From: Alphaproteobacteria bacterium
GTDB taxonomy: Bacteria > Pseudomonadota > Alphaproteobacteria > Thalassobaculales > Thalassobaculaceae
Reading direction: 5' to 3'
Assembly: GCA_024742275.1 (NCBI GenBank)
Contig: JANSYS010000005.1
Location: 1-64,000, forward strand
DNA length: 64,000 bases
Positions 23,249-31,406 of this stretch are shown here, piece by piece; within the stretch, counting starts at the first letter, position 1; each line of letters starts with the position of its first letter. The notes under the pieces are model-generated. The model made no database searches and was not told the DNA's origin. It saw only the letters and a program-made list of their open reading frames with translations. Position numbers and translations under genes: made by a program.

Positions 23249-23680
23249 CGGCGGTTTCGACATCCGTCGACAGGCCGCCCGGGTGAAGGCTTATGTAATC
23301 CTGCAATCCATTTCGTGAAATAGTTCTCAAGCAATCGTTTCGCCGATGTCTTGCCGACGCTACGGTAGCCGTCAAGATCACTGGCGAACTTGTTCACACG
23401 GACTACTGGCTTCGATGGCTGTAATCTAAGTGTCAAAGAAGTCTCGAACATCGATGACAGCGGACAGACCAGATCAAAAAATGTTTCGCAATTTCATATA
23501 CTTAACGATTTGCTTAAAAACTAGGCATTTTGTAGCCGGGCCACGGAGTCTGCGGGCTCCGGCGAACCCAGGCCGGCTTTTCAACAAGGTTTTCCACAGG
23601 AATCGTGGATTAAGAAACCGCGCTCTGTGCGCGTTTTTTGGTGCATCCGATACACGCGGCCAGGCATCGCGGGCACGGCC
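23249..23680. other. Long leader region upstream of uvrC, possible small RNA
   Basis: This 432-bp region has no credible gene. It contains TATACT at 23497-23502, a possible -10 with no clear -35. A GC-rich stem-loop follows at 23535-23577 (GCCGG with CCGGC outside, CGGAG with CTCCG inside) and ends in TTTT. A second small hairpin is CCAC/GTGG near 23594-23608. A terminator-like element closes it at 23619-23639. The region is more AT-rich at 23470-23530 than its surroundings. It may be a small RNA or the uvrC 5' leader. Confidence 0.35.
23619..23639 (+). terminator. Terminator-like hairpin upstream of uvrC
   Basis: CGCGC and GCGCG enclose a five-base loop and are followed by six T residues, all on the plus strand. 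It is 370 bp past the SDR stop and 41 bp before uvrC, so it would end either the SDR transcript or a small RNA. Confidence 0.5.
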
Positions 23681-29152: not shown

Positions 29153-29605
29153 ATGGCCGTGCGCGTGCAGGAAGCGGATTTCGACATCGGTCGGGAGTTG
29201 GCCGATCTGACCGCCGGGAACCACGCGATTGGCGGCCTCGGGGTCTTCGTCGGACTGGTCCGCGATATCGCCGGCGGCGAAGCGGTCAGCGCGATGTCCC
29301 TGGAACACTATCCCAGCATGACCGAGCGGCAGTTGGCAGAGATCGAGGCGGAGGCGCTGGCGCGGTGGCCGCTGGAGGCGAGCCTGATCATCCATCGGGT
29401 GGGAGACTTGATGCCGGGCGACAACATCGTCCTGGTCGCCTGCGCGTCCGCACACCGGCAGGCGGCCCTCGATGCCACCGCGTTCCTGATCGACTGGCTG
29501 AAAACCAAGGCTCCGTTCTGGAAACGCGAGGAAACACCGGAAGGTGCGCGCTGGGTCGACGCCCGGGAAAGCGACGACGCCGCCGCTGCGCGATGGAGCA
29601 AGTGA
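29153..29605 (+). CDS. moaE: Molybdopterin synthase catalytic subunit
   Basis: It converts cyclic pyranopterin phosphate to molybdopterin with MoaD as sulfur donor. The protein has 150 residues. Conserved parts are GVFVGLVRD, LEHYPSM, IHRVGDLMPGDNIVLVACASAHR and the active-site Lys in FWKREETPEG. moaA and moaC, needed for the preceding step, are not nearby. The operon ends here and an AT-rich stretch follows. Confidence 0.96.
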   Translation: MAVRVQEADFDIGRELADLTAGNHAIGGLGVFVGLVRDIAGGEAVSAMSLEHYPSMTERQLAEIEAEALARWPLEASLIIHRVGDLMPGDNIVLVACASAHRQAALDATAFLIDWLKTKAPFWKREETPEGARWVDARESDDAAAARWSK

Positions 29606-29606
29606 C

Positions 29607-29651
29607 TATTTATAGTTGTGATATTTAAGATATAAAACTTATTTATAGTTG
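29607..29651. repeat. Two 12-bp direct repeats in an AT-rich promoter region
   Basis: TATTTATAGTTG occurs at 29607-29618 and again at 29640-29651, start to start 33 bp, about three helical turns. The surrounding 29606-29660 is strikingly AT-rich in a GC-rich genome. It lies just after moaE and about 58 bp before the membrane protein gene at 29709, so it is probably that gene's promoter or regulator-binding region. Confidence 0.55.
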
Positions 29652-29708
29652 AATATCGACTTACTCTGATGTCCAATTCCTCTCGCACACTGTTGGGGAG
29701 GATTGGGG

Positions 29709-30584
29709 ATGCTCGACAATTCCGTCATCGACGTGGCGCTGGGCCTGATTTTCTTCTACGTCGTCCTGAGCCTGATCGTGACATCGGCTCAGGAATGGAT
29801 TGCCAGCCTGCTCCGACTCAGGGCGAAGACCCTGCGCAAGGGCATCTCCCGACTGGTCGGAGACGAACTGGCACGGCAGGTTTACCGGCACAGCATGATC
29901 CGCAACCTGGCTATATCGGACAGACACCTGCCCTCCTACATCGACCCGCAGACCTTGAGCGCGGTGCTGCTGGATATCGTCGCCCGCGACCAGGACGGCA
30001 AGTCGGTTCTGGTGCAGAACGCCGACGAGCTCAAGGCGGCGGTGGAGAAGATCCCCGCCGGCAATCCGATCGGCGACGTGCTCAAGACCGCGGTGGCCGC
30101 CGGCGACAATGCGGCGCACGAGATGAGCGACTACCTCGCCGCCTGGTTCGACGAGGGCATGGAGCGGATTTCCGGCTGGTACCGTCGCGATGCCAAGGCC
30201 ATCACCGTGGCCCTTGCGGTCGTGCTCACCCTTGCGACCAACGCCAGTACCGTGCAGGTCGCCGGGAGCCTTTGGAAGAACGACTCCCTGCGCTCGGTCA
30301 TCGCTACGGAAGCCATGACCGCGGCAAACACCGGCAGCGTCTCGGCCGTCCAACAGTCGGATATCGACAGCCTCAGGGCCTTCCCCATCGGCTGGACCGA
30401 GACGACCTTTGACCGGATGAACTGGCCGGCCGCGGTTCTCGGTTGGCTGCTGACCGTCGCAGCAATCAGCCTCGGCGCTCCATTCTGGTTCGACCTGCTC
30501 TGCAAGGTTGCCAACCTGAGGGGTTCCGGGGGCGTCACGAACCGAGGCTCGAAAGCGGGAGCGATACCCTCCGGGACCGACTGA
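29709..30584 (+). CDS. Conserved membrane protein of unknown function
   Basis: The protein has 291 residues. A hydrophobic helix near residues 8-26 (DVALGLIFFYVVLSLIVTS) anchors the N-terminus. A middle soluble region of about 130 residues follows, with a second hydrophobic stretch at about 168-185 and a last one near 245-265. It ends with a short conserved-looking phrase, SLGAPFWFDLLCKVANLRGSG, then a low-complexity tail. I know proteins with this start and end from many bacteria, but none with an assigned function. The ATG at 29709 follows GGGAGG; a TTG lies at 29703. It sits alone behind an AT-rich region with direct repeats and may be cotranscribed with the phosphoesterase 78 bp downstream. 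Confidence 0.7.
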   Translation: MLDNSVIDVALGLIFFYVVLSLIVTSAQEWIASLLRLRAKTLRKGISRLVGDELARQVYRHSMIRNLAISDRHLPSYIDPQTLSAVLLDIVARDQDGKSVLVQNADELKAAVEKIPAGNPIGDVLKTAVAAGDNAAHEMSDYLAAWFDEGMERISGWYRRDAKAITVALAVVLTLATNASTVQVAGSLWKNDSLRSVIATEAMTAANTGSVSAVQQSDIDSLRAFPIGWTETTFDRMNWPAAVLGWLLTVAAISLGAPFWFDLLCKVANLRGSGGVTNRGSKAGAIPSGTD

Positions 30585-30662
30585 AAGATCATCAACGGGG
30601 TTGTCGGGAGGCCGATACAGGCTGCACCATCCGCTCATCGAGGCGCGATCGGGGAGCGAAAC

Positions 30663-31406
30663 ATGCGGCTCGCGGCCATTGCCGATATCCATGGAAATCA
30701 TTTGGCGCTGAAGGCGGTGCTGGACGACATCGACCGTCAGAACGTCGATCTGACCGTCAATCTCGGCGACCACCTGAGCTCGCCACTGGAAGCGGCAAGA
30801 ACGGCGGATCTGTTGTTGGCCAGCCAGATGGTCTCGATCCGCGGTAATCACGACCGATGGATTCTGGAGAAGACCCCGGAGCAGATGGGTGCATCCGACC
30901 GCTGGGCGCATGATCAGCTCACGGACGCGCACAAGGAGTGGCTCGGCACGCTGCCGGCAACGCGCTGGATCGACGACCGGATCTTTCTGTGCCACGGCAC
31001 ACCCGGCTCCGACACGACCTACTGGCTGGAGAAGGTCCGCCCCTATGGCGTGATCACGATGAGCCCCATCGAGGAGATCGAGGCGGCGGCGGAAGGTATC
31101 GACTGTCCGCTGATCCTCTGCGCCCACACCCACATCCCGCGCGCGGTCCGATTGCGGGACGGGCGGCTTGTCGTGAATCCCGGCAGCGTCGGCTGTCCCG
31201 GCTACGACGACGATAGCCCGCCGATACCGCACATCATGCAGGCGGGCACGCCGGACGCGTCCTACGCCATCTTGGAGGAAGTCGGCGGCGCGTGGCGCGT
31301 CAGCTTCCGGCAGGTGCCTTACGACCACATGGCCATGGCCGAGATCGCGAGGGCCCGCGGAAATGCCGCCTGGGCAAGCGCGCTCTCCTCCGGATGGATA
31401 CGGTAG
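30663..31406 (+). CDS. Metallophosphoesterase family protein
   Basis: A 247-residue calcineurin-like phosphoesterase. The metal-binding motifs are present in order: ADIHGNH, NLGDHLSS, IRGNHDRW, LCHGTP, and CAHTHIPRAV with VVNPGSVG. The group (YfcE/MJ0936-like) includes cyclic-nucleotide and other phosphodiesterases as well as phosphatases, and the substrate here is unknown. No signal peptide is seen. A hairpin shared with the convergent clpA gene follows it. Confidence 0.92.
   Translation: MRLAAIADIHGNHLALKAVLDDIDRQNVDLTVNLGDHLSSPLEAARTADLLLASQMVSIRGNHDRWILEKTPEQMGASDRWAHDQLTDAHKEWLGTLPATRWIDDRIFLCHGTPGSDTTYWLEKVRPYGVITMSPIEEIEAAAEGIDCPLILCAHTHIPRAVRLRDGRLVVNPGSVGCPGYDDDSPPIPHIMQAGTPDASYAILEEVGGAWRVSFRQVPYDHMAMAEIARARGNAAWASALSSGWIR

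Follow-up and report, generated by a model that had tools for sequence, protein, structure and literature searches.

Directly downstream of moaE, in the 64-kb stretch of DNA analyzed here (hereafter the window), a short AT-rich block carrying two copies of the same 12-bp sequence precedes a gene for a membrane protein, which we refer to as gene X. The locus raises two linked questions, namely what the block and its repeats do, and what kind of protein they may control. We compared the DNA with the rest of the 4.69-Mb assembly and with a same-site ortholog, and the protein with its relatives in other genomes and on plasmids. The features on which the analysis relies are collected in Table 1.

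Table 1. Features of the moaE–X–metallophosphoesterase region (columns: feature; position in the window; strand; basis)
moaE, upstream neighbor	29153..29605	+	profile match
Imperfect dyad ACTAT-TT-ATAGT (ACTATNNATAGT) over repeat copy 1	29605..29616	.	genome search
AT-rich block, proposed promoter region	29606..29660	.	80% A+T; 11 TpA steps in 55 bp
Direct repeat copy 1, TATTTATAGTTG	29607..29618	+	exact-copy search
Direct repeat copy 2, TATTTATAGTTG	29640..29651	+	exact-copy search
Leader, partly shared with the sister-species ortholog (CTGT.GGGGAG)	29661..29708	+	comparison; GGGGAGGA read by eye
Gene X, 291-aa protein of an unnamed family, about 3 hydrophobic segments	29709..30584	+	alignment, hydropathy, profile scans
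Hydrophobic segment 1, about residues 6-26	29724..29786	+	hydropathy; approximate bounds
Hydrophobic segment 2, about residues 163-183, the weakest, after WFDEGMERISGWYRR	30195..30257	+	hydropathy, alignment; approximate bounds
Hydrophobic segment 3, about residues 241-262, with LGAPFWFD	30429..30494	+	hydropathy, alignment; approximate bounds
Metallophosphoesterase (calcineurin-like), downstream neighbor	30663..31406	+	profile match

A preliminary description of this DNA had pointed out the repeat and the marked AT-richness of the block, and both observations hold. The two exact copies of TATTTATAGTTG start 33 bp from each other, and both fall in the 103-bp gap between the end of moaE (29605) and the start of X. 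When up to one mismatch is allowed they are still the only such sites in the 64 kb, where 0.01 are expected. Direct repeats of 12 bp or more appeared in none of 3,000 dinucleotide and none of 3,000 mononucleotide shuffles of the block (longest, 11 bp). Since the dinucleotide shuffles never reached this length, the repeat is real and exceeds chance even for the composition of the block itself. The lowest-GC 55-bp stretch of the window starts at 29600 (GC 0.182); the non-overlapping runner-up starts at 23476 (GC 0.255), before a gene read by eye as uvrC. The A+T excess is abrupt and limited to approximately 55 bp, and gene X has a GC content of 64.3%, similar to its neighbors.

The spacing of the repeats had been taken as a hint of a cooperative DNA-binding regulator, in which case the two 12-mers would be operators dedicated to X. 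A distance near three helical turns, a repeat beyond chance and a short dyad over copy 1 all agree with this proposal. The search of the genome for more copies of TATTTATAGTTG went the other way, as the whole 4.69-Mb assembly holds no third exact copy. With up to one mismatch the motif occurs at nine places including the window pair, compared with seven for the reversed control pattern. Of the other seven near-matches, five are on contig C8 and one on contig C15, in fetched stretches of 25-29% GC, which indicates that near-matches follow composition. Furthermore, the dyad ACTATNNATAGT occurs once in the genome and is broken in repeat copy 2 by one extra T (read by eye), and no regulator gene was recognized beside X on reading the list of open reading frames. 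Both repeats are also missing upstream of the one same-site ortholog compared, so that the expected conservation in relatives failed in this comparison. Recurrence of the motif in the genome and conservation upstream of the ortholog (a single one) are the two properties that we looked for in an operator of a regulon, and we found neither. Given no third copy, near-matches at background and an ortholog without the repeats, such an operator is quite unlikely. As a separate observation, the 25-29% GC stretches of contigs C8 (76.6 kb) and C15 (27.8 kb) stand out in a GC-rich assembly and may represent a low-GC element or contamination.

Alternatively, the repeat could be a functionless relic, left by slippage or by a small insertion that duplicated 12 bp of its target. 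Its absence from the sole ortholog compared and the lack of a third exact copy in the genome are what such a relic would leave, and the tandem repeat finder returned no array between 29400 and 29900. Against this explanation, the repeat lies within the likeliest promoter region of X, where the composition is extreme. We regard a relic as a serious possibility, short of an even chance. Overall, we infer that the AT-rich block is the promoter of X and that the 12-bp repeat represents a local duplication within this promoter rather than the operator of a regulon. A scan of positions 29400-30800 for sigma-70 promoters and terminators found none, although such a simple scan says little in an alphaproteobacterium, and the sole Rfam match in the window is a tRNA at 911-983.

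The composition of the block also raises the possibility of silencing. According to a study in Sinorhizobium fredii (PMC8857273), recruitment of MucR increases with AT content and, to a weak degree, with the number of TpA steps, and the pattern TTXXXGXXXTXXXXXXXXXXTT is enriched; a review (PMC9957244) provides further background on MucR. The genome analyzed here encodes one MucR/Ros gene (E 1.4e-52), and the TpA count of the block is the maximum of the window, with six steps in the next non-overlapping 55-bp stretch. MucR/Ros might thus coat this AT- and TpA-rich DNA and keep X low until it is needed. However, none of the seven matches to the published pattern in the window (6.55 expected) lies in the block, the 200 bp around the block are only 50.5% AT, and the stretch upstream of the sister-species ortholog is milder, its lowest 55-bp GC being 0.36. 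A promoter bound by this silencer is possible, and we hold the reading tentatively. AT-richness is not a general property of the family: across 49 family rows, near-copies and fragments included, upstream AT content has a mean percentile of 0.47 relative to other genes of the same locus, so there is no family-wide trend.

Recent transfer had been offered as another reason for the AT content, and here the evidence points to an old gene. The sister species G003 carries an ortholog with 64% identity at the same site after moaE (locus L034, in the MAG record JARGOG010000012.1, Thalassobaculaceae bacterium). The gap upstream of this ortholog measures 170 bp as compared with 103 bp in the window; both gaps have an AT-rich piece, that of G003 being different and milder, and the two leaders have in common parts near the ribosome-binding site. 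Between the two genomes, X shows a dN of 0.27 and a dS of 0.96, while dS ranges from 0.63 to 1.06 for moaE, moeA, the metallophosphoesterase and clpA. The GC3 of X (0.849) is also like that of its neighbors (0.83 to 0.865). By these values, X is under purifying selection and is not a newcomer. In L034:6970-8552, opposite-strand genes lie between X and the metallophosphoesterase, and by eye they include a GntR-type regulator and a methyltransferase.

A recent acquisition of X would be compatible with the patchy spread of the family. Relatives were found in at least 14 of the 289 genomes sampled from the class, 14 of 396 from the phylum, 11 of 329 from the class to which G526 belongs and 7 of 36 from the order; these samples overlap, most of them include the window genome, and the counts are lower bounds because scoring covered a subset of the candidates in each genome. 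Relatives also occur on 12 plasmid records, four from Rhizobium, two from Agrobacterium and one each from Paracoccus, Caballeronia, Vitreoscilla, Hymenobacter, Kovacikia and Nostoc. In addition, X is missing from the site in the genus mates G002 and G004, where moaE is directly followed by the metallophosphoesterase. In a tree of moeA, moaD and moaE, however, these two non-carriers pair with each other (0.974) inside the carriers, with the window genome outside G003, G002 and G004 at a support of only 0.72, and one old loss explains this pattern equally well. Together with the same site in the sister species and neighbor-like dS and GC3, this makes recent acquisition very unlikely. X was probably present in the ancestor of the genus and then lost once, or gained before the split. 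Among the 22 genomes searched, 17 others with a moaE match have neither X nor the phosphoesterase in the stretches examined around moaE, of up to 1.5 kb on either side. Two members of the same listed genus, G001 and G005, are approximately 1.5 Mb in size at 99% completeness and have no moaE match; other members measure 4.7-5.6 Mb.

We then considered the protein. The better start of X is the ATG at 29709 rather than the TTG at 29703 of the list of open reading frames, and GGGGAGGA at 29695-29702 is the likely ribosome-binding site of this ATG (read by eye). Hydropathy windows of 19 residues exceed 1.6 at three places, with centers at residues 10-23, 173 and 176, and 248-256; with just two centers above the value, the second span is weak. 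Charged residues favor K/R over D/E after segment 1 (six and three, respectively) and after segment 3 (four and one), and no such basic excess precedes segment 2 (four and five). Hydropathy and charge together give a modest signal that suggests about three spans, with the N-terminus outside and the C-terminus inside. Twenty aligned relatives have conserved an N-terminal helix, PSYI, WFDxxMDRxSGWYKR in the middle, NxDT, LPIGW and a C-terminal LGAPFWFDLL. The conserved ends that the preliminary description had reported are therefore visible in relatives as the N-terminal hydrophobic helix and the C-terminal motif.

That description's further statement, a membrane protein with no assigned function, is borne out by profile searches. 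The window protein has no match in Pfam or NCBIfam at E up to 1, only chance-level matches in PHROG (E 0.22-0.28) and no match in phages and viral contigs. When 20 members were scanned, NCBIfam gave no match, holin families included, and Pfam gave weak PG_binding_1 tails in three members, a chance-like match in one and no holin. A 20-row profile found no PDB chain at E up to 0.1, and AlphaFold on two sequences returned a mean pLDDT of 39.9 and no usable fold. A small keyword search retrieved no published description of the family. According to taxonomy lines, the family is present in Pseudomonadota, Bacteroidota and Cyanobacteriota, and a different query gave a weak match in Nonomuraea. What is new at this locus is the X family, not the repeats: neither the Pfam nor the NCBIfam copy used contains a model for the family core, which is also without a PDB relative, and this is of wider interest than the repeats.

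Collecting homologues and inspecting their gene neighborhoods, as had been advised, proved informative. A lipase or peptidoglycan hydrolase lies beside the X relative or is fused with it in 15 of 42 non-redundant loci, mostly in tight operons; one of two adjacent Lipase_3 members in the tally has no assigned locus, so that the count could be 16. The enzyme is an immediate neighbor in 13 loci (L030, L051, L054, L055, L064, L105, L110, L111, L114, L129, L130, L133 and L134) and is a C-terminal Lipase_3 fusion in two relatives (L109 and L132). A separate Lipase_3 gene adjoins the X relative in L130. In all 15 loci, the enzyme was seen in a Pfam scan of the individual protein. Partners belong to the classes patatin, Lipase_3, Tle1-like, Amidase_2, Amidase_3, M15, Hydrolase_2, GH46 and GH19. 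L134 combines Amidase_3 with patatin, L051 has a patatin (one of three) and the GH19 match in L133, at 27.2 bits, is barely above the cut-off of 25.5. Other partners include an S8 peptidase in L062, TIR and DUF4062 proteins in L057, and a vanadium haloperoxidase, which adjoins X in L050 and in L128 and precedes it by three genes in L052. In the remaining 27 of the 42 loci no lipase or wall hydrolase was identified beside X; many of these loci have housekeeping-like flanks (judged by eye), as does the window, where the neighbors are moaE and the metallophosphoesterase and the X copy is an orphan.

The 42 loci consist of 41 kept loci plus L051, which was added by hand with its two neighbors. We dropped two duplicates (L034 and L115), five near-copies of kept loci (L026, L031, L033, L128 and L136) and L025, the ortholog of the window, whose non-lytic neighbors count against the pairing. 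Four loci (L065, L112, L113 and L138) are partial, and neighbors were scanned if they were at least 90 aa and shorter than 1200 aa.

We compared the immediate neighbors with a far control, composed of 64 genes in the fourth place out. For 80 immediate neighbors, where 25 of 183 families were listed and the single-member ones thus in part, seven of the 12 Pfam families found on at least two proteins are lipase- or wall-related, although three of the seven wall-related matches are not independent, as PG_binding_1 falls on the same proteins as Amidase_2 (two) and GH46. None of the seven such families of the far control is lipase- or wall-related; SLT_2 and phage lysozyme occur there once each, among the 25 of 95 families listed. 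Seventeen nearby enzymes were examined; 15 of them are on the strand of X, and 14 of these lie within 56 bp of it. Within the first 45 residues of the enzymes, hydropathy in 15-residue windows reaches at most 1.92 (in L062, borderline), and the partner enzymes thus show no clear signal peptide by this crude test with uncertain starts. On the family tree, the enzyme label requires two changes as compared with a shuffled mean of 4.6, and only one of 500 shuffles was as low, which indicates that it is clustered. Enzyme-linked relatives form several small groups, each with support of its own, that differ in their enzymes; resolution of the tree is poor, with 16 of 41 inner branches starred, and it may also accommodate one origin of the pairing.

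Other features of these neighborhoods are recorded here as observations in their own right. In L050, L128 and L052, from plasmids of Rhizobium, Agrobacterium and Paracoccus, respectively, three hypothetical genes and the vanadium-dependent haloperoxidase precede X, with two small genes between haloperoxidase and X in L052. L026, L030 and L031 (from G003, G004 and G002, respectively) hold another, distantly related X paralog, whose tail weakly resembles PG_binding_1 and which is flanked by a trypsin/cell-wall-hydrolase protein and by a 985-aa protein that is adenylate cyclase-like by its N-terminus; a search of the window genome found only the window copy of X. At L028:10074-10097, a perfect 24-bp palindrome, GTCTACTGCAATATTGCAGTAGAC, stands in the stretch that separates an SH3-domain gene from the X homologue.

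Because some members recur beside lipid- and peptidoglycan-degrading enzymes, the family may provide effectors with a membrane partner. Our preferred reading, to which we assign a probability of roughly 0.4, is that X is an old standalone gene with its own promoter in the block and that its family supplies the membrane part of small envelope-attack modules. X would be driven from 29606-29660, possibly damped by the MucR/Ros protein of the genome. The family protein would span the inner membrane about three times, with its N-terminus outside and its C-terminus inside, and would anchor, or pass, an adjoining or fused lipase or peptidoglycan hydrolase that has no clear signal peptide. The simplest account of the family is a membrane partner for enzymes attacking lipids or the wall, either a holin-like exporter or an inner-face anchor. 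The lipase fusions and the predicted inside C-terminus favor an anchor, and the wall hydrolase partners favor export.

Among the observations that count against such modules, L057, the closest relative from beyond the genus, has a TIR and a DUF4062 protein as its neighbors, and an inside C-terminus is at odds with binding of the wall by the weak PG_binding_1 tails that three members carry. Because the window copy is an orphan with no partner beside it, and its closest extra-genus relative has TIR and DUF4062 instead, the role of this copy can at best be inferred; it may work with an enzyme encoded elsewhere, or may have taken another task.

The same neighborhoods could reflect the opposite relationship, with X proteins as immunity or stress-sensing proteins guarding against envelope-attack enzymes. 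Tight pairing with toxic enzyme classes would be expected of such guards, and orphan copies would then stand alone. However, one family would have to deal with chemically unrelated partner enzymes, and two members are themselves fused to a lipase, which is unusual for immunity proteins; we consider this explanation unlikely. A broader version of the envelope-attack reading, which is bolder and to us rather doubtful, sees the family as a common three-span platform that swaps partners without clear signal peptides, be they lipases, peptidoglycan hydrolases, proteases, haloperoxidases or TIR effectors. The platform would either export these partners or turn them on the envelope of its own cell, and orphans would be kept under an AT-rich, silencer-prone promoter. 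If true, it would be the platform of an undescribed kind of envelope-attack module.

Three known systems invite comparison with this locus and its relatives. Like the alphaproteobacterial genes silenced by MucR/Ros, X has an AT- and TpA-rich putative promoter stretch, of 55 bp only, in a GC-rich genome encoding MucR/Ros. Unlike them, the block bears no published pattern, the body of X is not AT-rich and X is not recent.

Holin-endolysin pairs and type 10 secretion resemble some relatives, in which the genes for a multi-span protein and for a wall hydrolase that lacks a clear signal peptide (M15, amidase or GH19) form a tight operon, and natural holin-endolysin fusions have been reported (PMC9527704). 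Such a co-encoded signal-less wall hydrolase is missing beside the window copy and is present in a minority of relatives. Most X relatives, at approximately 280-400 aa and with a long middle region, also differ from holins of the usual size. Moreover, patatin, lipase, haloperoxidase and TIR partners need no holin, and the searches gave no holin-family match and, for the window protein, nothing in phages or viral contigs.

Finally, the Thoeris defense system comes to mind at L057, the one locus where X lies beside a ThsB-like TIR protein (scored as ThsB at E 4.2e-71), and where a DUF4062 protein is its other neighbor. X differs from the Thoeris components in having no PADLOC match when the three proteins of the locus are scanned, and no Thoeris-like genes were recognized in the window on reading its list of open reading frames. 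In L057:6904-9993, the ThsB-like TIR gene, X and the DUF4062 gene share a strand, and a gene read by eye as a DNA methylase lies approximately 3 kb away; this arrangement is possibly a defense locus.
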